Under the pieces are notes generated by a model that was not told the DNA's origin, made no database searches, and saw only the letters and a program-made list of their open reading frames with translations. Source: a virus. Taken from it: 28,345 bases of DNA. Shown piece by piece: positions 166 through 20,051 of the stretch. How positions within the stretch are numbered: position 1 is the first letter of the stretch; each line of letters starts with the position of its first letter. The stretch covers positions 1 to 28,345 of IMG/VR virus record IMGVR_UViG_3300030101_001083. One strand, given 5' to 3'. A program made the position numbers and the translations under genes.

Positions 166-672
166 ATGAGTAATTTTGCAAGAAAAACTAAACAGCGGAT
201 AATCGACGAGTATCTGCAAGCTACTGGTTTGAACATATTTAAAGCTGATGAGTTTGTGGACTGGCTGGCTAACCAGCCGGAACATGAAATGTATGACGCA
301 TTTTATGGCGTGGACGATAGCACGGCAGCACGTAACTGGCGTATCGACATGGCACGGCGCATGGCCAGCGGACTACGGATCGTGGTTAAACAAGAAGAAA
401 TACAACAAAGTGACGTCGTGTCAATCAAGGTCGCTGAGTATCCGGCATACATATCACCGGTAGCCAAGCGCAAAGAAGGCGGCGGCTACGAACCGTTTGA
501 CCCCGACGATGAAACCTCGCAAGAAGAATTACGGCGGCAAGCTGGCGTGGCACTGGCCGCGTGGCTCAACCGCTTCCGTGGGTCCGCGGAACATATCGGG
601 CTCGACATGACGCCAATCGAAAATATTGTCCGCATTCTGCGCGATGATAAAGACGAAGCAGTTGGGGCTTGA
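166..672 (+). CDS. Hypothetical phage protein, 168 aa
   Basis: The product is not recognised. It is a soluble, mixed-charge protein with no signal peptide or membrane segment. A basic N-terminus (SNFARKTKQR) is followed by an acidic aromatic stretch, a Gly/Pro hinge near residues 103-115 and a helical C-terminus. The ATG follows a very strong ribosome binding site (AAGGAGG at 154-160), unlike the ACGGGAG leaders of the genes that follow. The stop codon TGA lies inside the -35 hexamer of the next promoter. It could belong to the early gene set, but no function can be assigned. Confidence 0.7.
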   Translation: MSNFARKTKQRIIDEYLQATGLNIFKADEFVDWLANQPEHEMYDAFYGVDDSTAARNWRIDMARRMASGLRIVVKQEEIQQSDVVSIKVAEYPAYISPVAKRKEGGGYEPFDPDDETSQEELRRQAGVALAAWLNRFRGSAEHIGLDMTPIENIVRILRDDKDEAVGA

Positions 673-697
673 CAATATGTTGTCACCGTAGTATATA
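669..697 (+). promoter_or_regulatory. Strong sigma70-like promoter
   Basis: TTGACA at 669-674 is followed by a 17-base spacer and TATATA at 692-697. The -35 box overlaps the stop codon of the upstream gene. The ACGGGAG leader motif starts 47 bases after the first base of the -35 box, the same distance as in several other units. Confidence 0.75.
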
Positions 698-2312: not shown

Positions 2313-2341
2313 TTGACAAGTATGGGATAATATGTTATAGT
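2313..2341 (+). promoter_or_regulatory. Sigma70-like promoter with operator-like spacer
   Basis: TTGACA at 2313-2318, a 17-base spacer and TATAGT at 2336-2341 make a near-consensus promoter. The spacer contains CAAGTATGGGAT (2317-2328), repeated in inverse orientation at 2103-2114. It also contains ATAAT at the same distance from TTG as in three other upstream regions. Confidence 0.75.
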
Positions 2342-4319: not shown

Positions 4320-4421
4320 ATGTTTATATTTAGTCTTATTGGCCGGTTGTTGTATGGGCCGGATTGGGAAAAACACACACAAAAACGAACGCGACATATA
4401 AGCCGACGCCGACGTCGTTAA
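4320..4421 (+). CDS. Very small Arg-rich protein, 33 aa
   Basis: The product begins with a hydrophobic FIFSLIGRLLYG segment. It ends in a strongly basic tail (KRTRHISRRRRR, all five last residues Arg). That layout would suit an amphipathic or membrane-touching peptide, or a nucleic-acid-binding one. The call rests on the ACGGGAGAT leader upstream and on the terminator placed 18 bases after the stop. The function is unknown. Confidence 0.5.
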   Translation: MFIFSLIGRLLYGPDWEKHTQKRTRHISRRRRR

Positions 4422-4439
4422 AATTTTAAAAAATAATAG

Positions 4440-4472
4440 GCCCCGTCAAAATATCTTGACGGGGCTTTTTTT
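4440..4472 (+). terminator. Terminator whose 3' arm carries the next -35 box (copy 1)
   Basis: GCCCCGTCAA at 4440-4449 pairs perfectly with TTGACGGGGC at 4456-4465 around AATATC, and a T-tract follows. The first six bases of the 3' arm are the -35 box of the promoter at 4456-4484. A 28-base identical copy occurs 249 bases downstream. Confidence 0.85.
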
Positions 4473-4484
4473 AACTCTTATATA
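4456..4484 (+). promoter_or_regulatory. Promoter built on a terminator hairpin (copy 1)
   Basis: TTGACG at 4456-4461 is followed by a 17-base spacer that is largely the terminator T-tract, then TATATA at 4479-4484. The ACGGGAG leader begins 48 bases after the -35 start. Confidence 0.65.
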
Positions 4485-4503
4485 AGAGAAATCTTATAGA
4501 AAC

Positions 4504-4510
4504 ACGGGAG
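4504..4510 (+). promoter_or_regulatory. ACGGGAG leader motif deciding a TTG start
   Basis: An ACGGGAGAT copy lies six bases before TTG at 4517, the same spacing as for the ATG genes at 729 and 2425. This supports a TTG initiation codon. Confidence 0.6.
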
Positions 4511-4516
4511 ATTAAA

Positions 4517-4681
4517 TTGACTATTGATTATGATGCTATATATGACGCCGTCGATAAAATTTCTAAAACTTCTAATGAAGTTGAAATAAAAAATATTGTT
4601 TACGGTTTGGGAGATATTGAAAGAAAAAAGTTAAAAGAGATTGTGCGGCGTGTTTCTAAATTGCGCCATATCGCAACCTGA
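4517..4681 (+). CDS. Small hypothetical protein, 54 aa, TTG start
   Basis: The product is not recognised. It is a soluble helical protein: an acidic N-terminal half (TIDYDAIYDAVDKISKTSNEV) and a basic C-terminal half (IERKKLKEIVRRVSKLRH). It lies alone between two near-identical terminator/promoter elements. The TTG start is inferred from the leader; no ATG is available in a sensible place. The charge split suggests a DNA- or protein-binding helix pair, but this is only a guess. Confidence 0.6.
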   Translation: MTIDYDAIYDAVDKISKTSNEVEIKNIVYGLGDIERKKLKEIVRRVSKLRHIAT

Positions 4682-4688
4682 ATATTAG

Positions 4689-4722
4689 GCCCCGTCAAAA
4701 TATCTTGACGGGGTTTTGTTTT
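4689..4722 (+). terminator. Terminator whose 3' arm carries the next -35 box (copy 2)
   Basis: GCCCCGTCAA at 4689-4698 pairs with TTGACGGGGT at 4705-4714, and a T-rich tract interrupted by one G follows. It is identical to copy 1 across the hairpin core. Confidence 0.8.
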
Positions 4723-4733
4723 TTGTATATATG
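4705..4733 (+). promoter_or_regulatory. Promoter built on a terminator hairpin (copy 2)
   Basis: TTGACG at 4705-4710 is followed by TATATG at 4728-4733 (17-base spacer), or TATATA at 4726-4731 (15-base spacer). The ACGGGAG leader starts 48 bases after the -35 start. Confidence 0.6.
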
Positions 4734-4752
4734 GGACAAAGCGCATTCAATT

Positions 4753-4759
4753 ACGGGAG
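4753..4759 (+). promoter_or_regulatory. ACGGGAG leader motif
   Basis: It lies eight bases before the ATG at 4768. It rules out the in-frame upstream start at 4705, which would lie inside the promoter. Confidence 0.6.
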
Positions 4760-4767
4760 CTTTTGAA

Positions 4768-5478
4768 ATGCTTAAAACTGTCAAAAATTCTACAGCCAAT
4801 AAAACGGCGGGCTTGGCCGTTACATATAGAGCGGGCAAGGCTAACAATTTTGGGACATGCCCCGCAGATTGTAAGTTAAACGATAGCGGGCGCGGGTGTA
4901 AATCTGATCAAATAGATTTTGAATATTTAGACGCCGTGTTAGATGCCAAGCCGCGACGCGGGGAAAGCTTCACATATTCCCATTTTCACCCGTTATACTG
5001 GGCGCATAAATTGGCCCCGAATAAAACCACAATAAATTTTAGCGCGGATAATTTGGCCGAAGCCGTGCAAATTATGAAAGATAAGGTTGCGCCGGTTGTA
5101 ACAGTCGTAAAAAAATCTTTTTGGAAAAATGGAAAAAACGCAATTGCCGACGGGGTTAGGGTCATACGTTGCCCCGCTGAATATTTAGAAAATTTAGGTT
5201 GCGTCAATTGTGGTGGTAAAGATGGCCCGTTATGTGCGCGGTTAAATCGTGATTTCATTATCGGCTTTACTGGCCACGGGGCCAGCAAAAAGAAAATAGA
5301 AAACGATAAGCGCGGGGGCTGTTATGCGGCGGGCGGTAATGTTGCCATTCATTGGCGGGCAACGGCGGGCCAGAAACAGGACCAAACCGACGGGGATAAG
5401 TTGCGGGATTTTGTCAAAACGCTATCACCCCGCGCTATTATCCGGCATCACGTCGCGGGTGATATAGGGGCCGAATAA
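4768..5478 (+). CDS. Cys-rich phage protein (DUF7227-like), 236 aa
   Basis: The function is unknown. The sequence has a first Cys group (C31, C35, C44) in a TCPADCKLNDSGRGC segment, an SFTYSHFHPLYWAHK block with H72 and H74, and a second Cys group (C135, C145, C148, C156) spread over RCPAEYLENLGCVNC to the LCARL that follows. A hydrophobic strand (DFIIGFTGHG) comes next. The layout suggests one or two metal sites. It resembles the DUF7227 family as I recall it, which occurs in phages and is not characterised; that match is from memory. The start at 4768 is fixed by the leader motif. It lies next to the DUF932 gene, so the two may act together. Confidence 0.65.
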   Translation: MLKTVKNSTANKTAGLAVTYRAGKANNFGTCPADCKLNDSGRGCKSDQIDFEYLDAVLDAKPRRGESFTYSHFHPLYWAHKLAPNKTTINFSADNLAEAVQIMKDKVAPVVTVVKKSFWKNGKNAIADGVRVIRCPAEYLENLGCVNCGGKDGPLCARLNRDFIIGFTGHGASKKKIENDKRGGCYAAGGNVAIHWRATAGQKQDQTDGDKLRDFVKTLSPRAIIRHHVAGDIGAE

Positions 5479-7280: not shown

Positions 7281-7314
7281 GCCCCGCTGGTACATTACCG
7301 GCGGGGCTTTTTTT
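7281..7314 (+). terminator. Rho-independent terminator
   Basis: GCCCCGCTGGT at 7281-7291 pairs with ACCGGCGGGGC at 7297-7307 with one wobble and a five-base loop, and seven T follow. It closes the last small unit of the array. Confidence 0.9.
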
Positions 7315-10301: not shown

Positions 10302-12734
10302 ATGGCTCGTGAACCGATTGCCGGAATGATAGACAAGAATGTCCCGTCTCAGTTGGACATGGAGGACTTAGCTGCGGAAGTTGAGCTAGAGATTCCCGGC
10401 AGCATGGACGACAACGTCGTTGCTTTTGAGGGTGTTGCCGAGGGCATGGACATAGAGATGATCCCGGATGAGGACGGTGGTGTAACCATTGATTTTGATC
10501 CGCAGGACCAGCGCGGCAAAGGTGATGATTTCTACATGAACTTGGCCGAGGAGATACCGGACCGTGAGTTGTCCCGTATTGCTGGCGAGTTAATGTCTGA
10601 GTTTGATGCTAATAAGTCGGGACGACAGGAGTGGGAAGATGCTTACGCCAACGGTTTGGAACTTCTTGGTTTCTCCTATGAGGAGAGAGCGCAGCCATTC
10701 CGAGGAGCTTCCGGAGTTACGCACCCCTTGCTCGCAGAGGCTGCTACACAATTCCAAGCGCAGGCGTTTAACGAGTTGTTGCCAGCGTCGGGTCCCGTGC
10801 GAACTGCTGTCTTGGGAGCCGAAACAAGGGAAAAAGAGCAGCAGGCCATCCGCGTAAAGCAGTTTATGAACTACTACATCACCAACGTGATGGAGGAATA
10901 CACCCCTGAACTTGACCAGATGTTGTTCTTTTTGCCTTTGGCGGGGTCTACGTTCAAGAAAGTTTACTATGATGAGACAAGAGGACGTGCTGTAAGTAAG
11001 TTTGTACCGGCAGAACACCTAGTTGTGCCGTATGAAACGTCAGATTTAGAGACTTGTCCCAATATAACGCAGGTTATCCGCATGTCATTGAACGATTTGC
11101 GGAAGAAACAGGTGTCTGGGTTCTATCTGGACATGGATGTGTTGCCCGCGCAGGGTGAGTCAGGGTCCGTGGAGGACGAAATACAGCGTATTGACGGTGT
11201 AACACCCACTCAGATCGACTATGACTGCACGATTTTGGAGTGTCACGTTGATTTGGACCTTGAGGGGTATGAAGAAGAGGATGAGGACGGTGAATTAACC
11301 GGTATCAAGATACCATATATTGTCACCATCAGTCAGGATAACGGTCAGATACTGTCAATTAGGCGAAATTATCGTGAAGATGACGAAGATAAGCGAAAAA
11401 TACAGTATTTTGTGCATTATAAGTTCCTTCCGGGATTTGGTTTTTACGGTTTGGGGCTTATTCACACGATTGGCGGGCTGTCACGGACCGCCACAGCGGC
11501 ACTGCGACAGTTAATCGACGCTGGTACGTTGTCCAACCTCCCAGCGGGTTTCAAAGCCCGCGGACTACGGATCAGGGACGACGATGACCCGTTGCAGCCC
11601 GGTGAGTTTCGCGATGTGGATGCTCCCGGAGGGGCTATTCGTGACAGCCTGATGCCGCTGCCGTTCAAAGGGCCTGATGCGACGCTGTTTAACTTGCTTG
11701 GGTTTGTTGTTCAGGCGGGTCAGCGGTTTGCGACGATTACAGACCTGAAAGTGGGTGATGGTAACCAGCAGGCGGCTGTTGGAACGACTATTGCGATGCT
11801 GGAGCAGGGTTCTCGTGTGATGAGTGCGGTGCATAAGCGGTTGCACTATGCCATGCGTATTGAGTTCAAGATGCTGGCGCGGGTTATGTCGGAGAGTCTG
11901 CCGCAGGAGTATCCGTATTCTGTAGAGGGTGCGGAGTCTGCCGTAATGGCGAGTGACTTTGACGACAGGATTGACGTGGTTCCTGTATCAGATCCGAATA
12001 TGTTTAGTCAGGCGCAGCGAATTGCGCTGGCACAGACCAAATTACAGCTTGCTGGTGCCGCTCCAGAGCTTCACAACATGCACGAAGTGTACAAGGACAT
12101 GTATGAGGCGCTGGGTGTTAAGGACACTGACAGGATAATGAAGCGTATCCCTGATGAGGAGCCAGCGCCAAAAGATCCGGCGCAGGAAAATATAGACGCT
12201 ATGGACATGGTGCCTTTGCAGGCGTTTGAGGGTCAGGAGCATGAGGCGCATATAATGGCGCACATGGTTTTTGGGTCTACACCAATGGTTGCAGGAATGC
12301 CTGCTATTGCCATGTCTTTGCAGAAGCACATTATGGAGCATGTGCGGATAGCGGCTCGTGAGCGGGCGGCAGTACAGTTTATTCAGTCTAGGCAGGCTGT
12401 TGGAGGGGCTGCGGCCACAGAAGAGGAGATGTTGCAGGTAGAGGGCCTGACTGCACAGTTTGTGGCTGAAGGTATGCAGATGGTCAAGCAGATGTCTCAG
12501 CAGGTATCAGGTCAGGGCCCGGATCCACTGGTTCAGTTGAAAGAGCAGGAGCTACAGATTAGAGCACAGGCTGAACAGGCAGATGCTCAGAATGATGCGG
12601 CTAAACTAAATCTGGATGCACAGAACCAGCAGATACGGGCATCTCAGTTCCAACAGAAGCTTGCCAGTCAGGAAAAACAGACCCAAGCACGTATTCAGTC
12701 TGCAATGGAGAGGGAACTACTCAAAAAACAATAG
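10302..12734 (+). CDS. Portal protein, 810 aa
   Basis: The portal is the dodecameric ring at the capsid vertex through which TerL loads DNA and to which the tail attaches. The frame has an acidic N-terminus and then the portal core (GASGVTHPLLAEAATQFQAQ, with the FNELLPASGPVRT that follows), with helices through about residue 640. The last 120 residues are a Gln/Ala-rich coiled coil (QLKEQELQIRAQAEQADAQ). The length fits the large podovirus-type portals. It is placed after TerL, as usual. The assignment rests on these conserved stretches and on synteny; the start follows GGAGATAACAC. Confidence 0.85.
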   Translation: MAREPIAGMIDKNVPSQLDMEDLAAEVELEIPGSMDDNVVAFEGVAEGMDIEMIPDEDGGVTIDFDPQDQRGKGDDFYMNLAEEIPDRELSRIAGELMSEFDANKSGRQEWEDAYANGLELLGFSYEERAQPFRGASGVTHPLLAEAATQFQAQAFNELLPASGPVRTAVLGAETREKEQQAIRVKQFMNYYITNVMEEYTPELDQMLFFLPLAGSTFKKVYYDETRGRAVSKFVPAEHLVVPYETSDLETCPNITQVIRMSLNDLRKKQVSGFYLDMDVLPAQGESGSVEDEIQRIDGVTPTQIDYDCTILECHVDLDLEGYEEEDEDGELTGIKIPYIVTISQDNGQILSIRRNYREDDEDKRKIQYFVHYKFLPGFGFYGLGLIHTIGGLSRTATAALRQLIDAGTLSNLPAGFKARGLRIRDDDDPLQPGEFRDVDAPGGAIRDSLMPLPFKGPDATLFNLLGFVVQAGQRFATITDLKVGDGNQQAAVGTTIAMLEQGSRVMSAVHKRLHYAMRIEFKMLARVMSESLPQEYPYSVEGAESAVMASDFDDRIDVVPVSDPNMFSQAQRIALAQTKLQLAGAAPELHNMHEVYKDMYEALGVKDTDRIMKRIPDEEPAPKDPAQENIDAMDMVPLQAFEGQEHEAHIMAHMVFGSTPMVAGMPAIAMSLQKHIMEHVRIAARERAAVQFIQSRQAVGGAAATEEEMLQVEGLTAQFVAEGMQMVKQMSQQVSGQGPDPLVQLKEQELQIRAQAEQADAQNDAAKLNLDAQNQQIRASQFQQKLASQEKQTQARIQSAMERELLKKQ

Positions 12735-19404: not shown

Positions 19405-19434
19405 AAAGAGCGGCTTCACAGCCGCTCTTTTTTA
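19405..19434 (+). terminator. Second, strong terminator after the capsid gene
   Basis: AAAGAGCGGCT at 19405-19415 pairs with AGCCGCTCTTT at 19420-19430 around TCAC, and more T follows. Its loop and 3' arm overlap a -35-like TTCACA. Confidence 0.92.
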
Positions 19435-19443
19435 TTGTATAGT
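19415..19443 (+). promoter_or_regulatory. Candidate promoter overlapping the capsid terminator
   Basis: TTCACA at 19415-19420 and TATAGT at 19438-19443 are 17 bases apart, each one mismatch from consensus. The -35 lies in the loop and 3' arm of the terminator and the T-tract forms the spacer, as in the 4456 and 4705 promoters. Confidence 0.55.
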
Positions 19444-19502
19444 TTTTTCACTTCCTGACAGTCGCATTGGGCGGCTGACATTAGCCAAGACAGGAGACTC
19501 AA

Positions 19503-20051
19503 ATGGCTACCACTACTTTTAGCGGAGCAGTACGCTCCGAAAATGGTTTCAAGGTTATAAATAAAAACGCATCTACAGGTGCGGTAACAGAAACCTCTTC
19601 TATCGCCTCTACGGGCATTATCACAAACAAATTCGTAAAACACGTTGGTTTTGCAACAGGTGTAACAGTAAACACAACAGCAGGGGATAGTCCTGCTATC
19701 GGTGAGTTTACACAGCCCGCCAACACGATCATTACTGACATTAAAATCTTTTGTGTTACCGCCCCAGTTATTGGAACAGGTGATATTGGATATGAGGTCG
19801 GCACTTCTAGTTCTGGAGCACAGATTGTTGCAGCTATAACGGATGAGATCCTTGATGGTGGAACAACTGTTGTTGTTGGTAACGTGACAACTACCACATT
19901 AGTTGCGACAACACAAAATGCAACTACTGCGCCAGTTTCTCCTCAATACACTTCGGCTGAAAGAACAATTTTCTGTAACATTACAAACACTGTAGATGCT
20001 ACGACAGCCGGGTCTTTCACGTTCATCATTGAATACGTTCAGGTGGCCTAG
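19503..20051 (+). CDS. Beta-rich virion protein, 182 aa
   Basis: The product is a Thr/Val/Ala-rich beta protein (TGAVTETSSIASTGIITNKF, VVVGNVTTTTLVATTQNATT), typical of phage surface or fibre-like subunits. No enzyme motif or signal peptide is seen. It is the first gene after the capsid terminator, behind the candidate promoter at 19415 and an AGGAG site. It could be a decoration, fibre or tail-tip subunit; the sequence does not settle which. Confidence 0.6.
   Translation: MATTTFSGAVRSENGFKVINKNASTGAVTETSSIASTGIITNKFVKHVGFATGVTVNTTAGDSPAIGEFTQPANTIITDIKIFCVTAPVIGTGDIGYEVGTSSSGAQIVAAITDEILDGGTTVVVGNVTTTTLVATTQNATTAPVSPQYTSAERTIFCNITNTVDATTAGSFTFIIEYVQVA

Follow-up and report, generated by a model that had tools for sequence, protein, structure and literature searches.

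Two short linkers flanking a small gene in a phage genome are best explained as intrinsic terminators fused with host-type promoters, probably regulated through a dyad and permitting the swapping of small-gene cassettes. We give this reading a probability of about 0.8. In each linker, approximately 45 bases appear to end one transcript and to carry half of the start signal of the next.

From the sequence we infer termination, initiation, operator function and a recombination route as follows. RNA polymerase ending the upstream small gene would make GCCCCGUCAA...UUGACGGGG, and this RNA would fold and be released over the T-tract. At the DNA level, the TTGACG shared with this RNA would serve as the -35 box, the T-tract would lie in the spacer of 17 bp, and the -10 box of the next gene would be TATATA or TATATG; the promoter of that gene would probably be regulated via the dyad overlapping the -10 box. 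Small genes lying between two such blocks could be gained, lost or swapped by recombination, leaving the transcription of their neighbours intact. Such block-wise exchange would be possible because terminator, promoter, dyad and ribosome site are contained in one short, near-identical block.

The window, i.e. the whole stretch of DNA analysed, is a virus record of 28,345 bases encoding a small terminase subunit of the Terminase_2 type, a portal of the SU10 type and a Mu-like gpT/Phage_capsid_4 capsid. Its large terminase is closest (61-63% identical) to those of phage 023Pt_psg01 and of Pelagibacter phage HTVC027P, and by this protein the nearest isolates include Pelagibacter phages. A megablast search with the window against 50,697 phage records gave no match, and no relative of its DUF7227 protein was found in the genome collection. 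The window and eight related contigs formed a set of nine records, all contigs being fragments. No T7-type RNA polymerase gene was found in these nine fragmentary records; T7, used as a positive control, was found. The phages carrying the terminator/promoter overlap are a group of marine phages.

Anatomy of the linkers and hairpin-free promoters

The genes and putative signals of the region are the following:

4320..4421, + strand: 33-aa gene (MFIFSLIGRLLYGPDWEKH...), conserved as the gene upstream of the linker in most relatives
4438..4467, + strand: copy 1 terminator hairpin, then T-tract (RNAfold, -20.7 kcal/mol)
4456..4461, + strand: copy 1 -35 box TTGACG, the first half of the hairpin 3' arm
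4462..4478, + strand: copy 1 spacer of 17 bases, made of the remaining 3' arm and the T-tract
4479..4484, + strand: copy 1 -10 box TATATA, with a predicted start at about 4491
4482..4497, + strand: copy 1 dyad ATAAGAGAAATCTTAT, which resembles an operator and overlaps the -10 box
4517..4681, + strand: 54-aa ORF cassette between both linkers, with a TTG start and ACGGGAG at 4504-4510
4687..4716, + strand: copy 2 terminator hairpin, then T-tract TGTTTTTT (RNAfold, -18.2 kcal/mol)
4705..4710, + strand: copy 2 -35 box TTGACG, inside the 3' arm
4711..4727, + strand: copy 2 spacer of 17 bases, made of the remaining 3' arm and the T-tract
4728..4733, + strand: copy 2 -10 box TATATG (TATATATGGGA), with a predicted start at about 4740
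4731..4746, + strand: copy 2 dyad ATGGGACAAAGCGCAT, imperfect (ATGGGAYAAATCGCAT in relatives)
4768..5478, + strand: DUF7227 gene (PF23872, E 7e-34), predicted to be driven by copy 2, with ACGGGAG at 4753-4759

In the window and its relatives, the region 4422-4768 is a hot spot of small genes with several alternatives.

The original prediction placed TTGACG in the 3' arm of both hairpins, 17 bases from TATATA in copy 1 and from TATATG in copy 2, and direct reading confirmed this. A 28-base identity between the copies was also found, both sharing TAGGCCCCGTCAAAATATCTTGACGGGG, but it extends over 4437-4464 and 4686-4713, three bases to the left of the starts first given. The 10-bp stem described as perfect is entirely Watson-Crick in copy 1 (GCCCCGTCAA-AATATC-TTGACGGGGC at 4440-4465, read directly), whereas the outermost pair of copy 2 is G-U. 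The T-tract of copy 2 is interrupted (TTTTGTTTTTT). In both linkers a GC-rich stem-loop lies past the end of a gene and is directly followed by a T-rich tract, as in intrinsic terminators.

The putative promoter half is of the sigma70 type, with TTGAC and TATAT-type hexamers 17 bases apart, conserved and located upstream of a start codon with a ribosome site. The -10 hexamers are without the final T of the Escherichia coli consensus. The alphaproteobacterial sigma70 consensus is CTTGAC-N17-CTATAT (PMC2873474), i.e. the same hexamers and spacing in a notation shifted by one base. Unlike these promoters, the linkers have their -35 box embedded in a terminator arm.

Promoters of the same kind also occur without a hairpin, two of them in the window:

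669..697, + strand: hairpin-free promoter TTGACA-17-TATATA, with a dyad at 695-710 and ACGGGAG
2313..2341, + strand: hairpin-free promoter TTGACA-17-TATAGT, conserved in relatives

Across the window and its relatives, TTGACA-17-TATATR or TTGACA-17-TATAGT precedes other genes of these phages with no hairpin in the -35 box, and many of these promoters share the ACGGGAG ribosome site and the dyad ATNNGANNNNTCNNAT with the hairpin promoters. This dyad was found at 32 sites in the nine records versus about 4 expected in shuffles, an excess of about eight times, and it starts at the fourth base (+3) of the -10 box in 26 of 27 hairpin promoters. It is probably the operator of some phage regulator. 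Hairpin promoters use TTGACG, whereas the free ones mostly use TTGACA, so that the sixth base has apparently been given up to the stem. At 669-697 and in relatives, an inverted repeat, TTGACAATATGTTGTCA, spans the -35 box and the spacer and is possibly a second operator.

The terminator after the capsid gene

A third case of the overlap had been proposed at 19405, where the features are:

19405..19430, + strand: terminator after the capsid gene, with TTCACA at 19415-19420
19438..19443, + strand: TATAGT, resembling a -10 box, located past the capsid terminator and before the Mu-gpT-DE RNA
19453..19505, + strand: Mu-gpT-DE RNA (RF03012), 70.5 bits

TTCACA-17-TATAGT is indeed present and a -10 box recurs in relatives 8-10 bases before the Mu-gpT-DE RNA, but the hairpin-borne -35 box is not conserved, and TTCACA corresponds to the loop plus the closing pair instead of the 3' arm proper. 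We aligned 72 capsid loci (within L109-L188) on the CCTGACA with which the Mu-gpT-DE RNA begins. TANNNT boxes lie 8-9 bases upstream of this start at 27 and 23 of the 72 sites, with few at most other distances, a pile-up suggesting that a -10 box right after the capsid terminator probably starts this RNA. No functional account of the Mu-gpT-DE RNA was found in the literature searched, and the capsid site gives it a predicted start site.

That the site is a third instance of the linker design, with TTCACA as a real -35 box, appears doubtful. TTCACA-17-TATAGT occurs in the window and is kept in a sub-lineage, TTGCCG or a similar hexamer stands at 16-17 in others, and TATANT follows the capsid terminator at 36 of 80 sites versus 9.2 in shuffled sequences. 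However, among these 80 capsid relatives, TTCACA was found in 13 and a TTGCCG-like hexamer in 30, and 37 have neither. Even within the TTCACA group, the only one to keep the complete arrangement, the -10 letters vary (TATGGT, TAGGAT, TAAGAT), and outside the TTCACA and TTGCCG-like sites the -10 box stands without a recognisable -35 box. As judged from these relatives, a -35 box in the capsid hairpin is optional or absent.

Conservation of the overlap and alternative readings

The window hairpin is letter-identical in five other IMG/VR contigs, and its class occurs in many more, in scans selected on the motif itself and with orthologous sites that are not independent. A cleaner set comprised 38 loci with upstream DNA, some of them near-duplicates, found via similarity of the DUF7227 protein. 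TTGAC-N18-TATA with the linker hairpin is present at most 300 bases upstream of DUF7227 in 30 of the 38. The remaining eight are sister lineages; in seven of them, a terminator of the conventional kind precedes a TTTACA-type box.

After removal of 3 mirror rows from 37, 34 distinct related hairpins were compared. The 3' arm TTGACGGGG and the spacing of 17 are found in all 34, and the -10 box is TATATG or TATATA. A further site (L001) has TACATA at 17. The 5' arm, in turn, exists in eight versions (CCCCGTCAA and those ending in CGA, TAA, TAT, TCT, CGC, TGC or TGT), and the spacer varies in its letters, including the T-tract, and is constant in length. No -10 box at 17 was found in the mirror rows for a reverse-strand promoter in the linker. 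A neighbouring terminator devoid of a promoter (the type at window position 7281) varies on both sides, with four 5'-arm and five 3'-arm versions. Part of the one-sided variation may be due to G-U wobble alone, since C-to-T and A-to-G changes in the 5' arm keep the pairing and changes in TTG would not. In short variants, e.g. CCCCGTTCTATTGACGGGG, the fold places the TT of TTGAC in the loop, where it is never changed and the adjoining loop letters vary; these variants would answer the wobble objection only in part. The invariant 3' arm and spacing, the varied 5' arm, the TTGAC kept in the loop and the hairpin-free promoters together argue that terminator and promoter share bases. For the two copies, this strongly supports the proposal that the 3' arm is used as the -35 box and the T-tract as spacer.

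The arrangement also exceeds chance. The window holds 5 cases of TTGAC-N18-TATA, where dinucleotide shuffles predict 0.25, and the nine related records hold 46 versus 2.45 expected, with the distribution of TTGAC-to-TATA spacings peaking at 17. Of the 81 strong terminators of the nine records, 9 have a 3' arm containing TTGAC, with TATA at a spacing of 17. In agreement with the original prediction, randomised hairpins did not give the overlap as often: 300 stem randomisations keeping pairing, loop and tail yielded 0.037 overlaps on average and never more than 2. As the nine are partly orthologous, they stand for two or more kinds of site (the copy 1 and copy 2 types) and not for nine events.

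These data bear on the view that the linkers are terminators only. TTGACG would then be there since CCCCGTCAA and TTGACGGGG make a good stem, TATA would be incidental, and the next gene would be read from further upstream. The terminators of the family do share a CCCCG...CGGGG stem, and the eight sister-lineage sites upstream of DUF7227 are without the overlap. Nevertheless, the 17-base spacing is invariant despite varied spacer letters, TTGAC is kept even with its TT in the loop, and the promoter also exists in hairpin-free copies, all of which makes this view improbable. Slightly less probable still is a site that functions chiefly as a promoter whose -35 box is covered by an operator dyad, the hairpin being a protein-binding site and termination weak or absent: TTGACA dyads with T-runs in an IMG/VR sample have a -10 peak at 16-18 and mostly stems too short for terminators, and a second dyad overlaps the -10 box, but the linker stems measure 9-12 bp, fold at -15 to -21 kcal/mol in most versions (a copy 1-type variant, L034, at only -11.5) and lie directly between stop codon and T-tract, and the 5'-arm changes of relatives mostly keep RNA pairing through G-U. 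When IMG/VR was surveyed for 3' arms that contain TTGACA and are followed by a T-run, 27 of the matches listed had longer stems, and six of these have a -10 box at 16-18.

Cassette exchange and comparison with known elements

Between the 33-aa gene and DUF7227, relatives carry no cassette or an ORF of 54, 61 or 60 aa (the last LKNVYY), and further alternative genes at this place begin with MSYEVEI, MYKIKDE or MQVEDF. Where linkers flank a cassette on both sides, the upstream one belongs to the copy 1 type and the downstream one to the copy 2 type. Copy 1 of the window and of a related contig (L012) is a hybrid, in which a copy 2-type hairpin with its upstream flank is joined to a copy 1-type -10 half. 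This is suggestive of a crossover or conversion within the shared stretch, which would explain the identity of the two window copies. The linkers look like exchange joints at which small-gene cassettes alternate.

Cassettes named PeSL (promoter-early stem-loop) were reportedly described by Arbiol in 2010 and Comeau in 2014 in the T4-like phages RB49, phi1, PST and nt-1. Moron-type insertions place a small gene, together with a promoter and a terminator for it, between conserved genes; the cassettes described here are likewise small genes between conserved genes, but one linker block provides the terminator of one gene and the promoter of the next. PeSL is a composite promoter-terminator mediating gene shuffling in T4-like phages, as cited in PMC4503421. 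The linkers resemble it in being a short composite of promoter and stem-loop, repeated in near-identical form between small genes where cassettes come and go, and the alternative cassettes and hybrid linkers seen among the relatives may reflect PeSL-style exchange.

The geometry differs, however. In the 100 kb of RB49 that were read, 11 promoters have a stem-loop inside the -35/-10 spacer, e.g. TTGAC[AGGGGATCGGTGATCCCCT]ATACT, with no T-tract, so that a terminator would need the -10 box as its tail; three more are fully tandem, lying wholly after the terminator. A description of the RB49 elements as simply tandem was ruled out by the fuller scan, given the 11 sites with the stem-loop in the spacer. 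PeSL-like promoters of this form were seen in RB49 (L108, L312), for instance at 40725, 41138 and 42283 on the minus strand of L312. No stem-loop was found in the spacer of any of 194 promoters of the family studied here. The linkers have their hairpin upstream, with the -35 box in its 3' arm and the T-tract in the spacer. Moreover, they occur in an unrelated phage group, with a SU10-type portal and a Mu-like gpT capsid. Tandem terminator-promoter junctions serve the same function at neighbouring genes of the same phage family, with the -35 box starting 10-14 bases past the stem, but share no bases.

At 12696-12723 (+ strand) of L274, a tRNA-Met-like sequence, recognised by eye, is followed by a terminator, ACCCTGTCAA...TTGACAGGGT, whose 3' arm gives TTGACA-17-TACAAT. 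This geometry suggests that the overlap design arose elsewhere too, and L274 and L231 look like independent overlapping designs. A literature search by phrase found no description of a -35 box inside a terminator arm. Composite overlapping promoter-terminators are already known as PeSL, and what is new is the tighter geometry and the different phage group.

In single-molecule work, polymerase that has finished at an intrinsic terminator can remain bound to the DNA and reinitiate from promoters close by, and the effect is expected to vary with the terminator-promoter distance (PMC6978380; PMC6978322). This distance is below zero in the linkers, which makes hand-over a possible benefit beyond compactness: a polymerase releasing its RNA at the T-tract would already be on the next spacer and could restart at once. 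We consider it rather unlikely that the overlap was selected for this. If it were, the transcription of each small gene would feed that of the next, a natural extreme case of post-termination reinitiation. The linkers offer a ready-made template for the study of polymerase recycling. As we read them, the linkers would represent one stretch of DNA held under two codes, RNA pairing to end one transcript and a DNA hexamer to begin another, with a frozen 3' arm and a free 5' arm as the signature. They may also constitute a second geometry among the composite cassettes that assist phages in shuffling their small genes.
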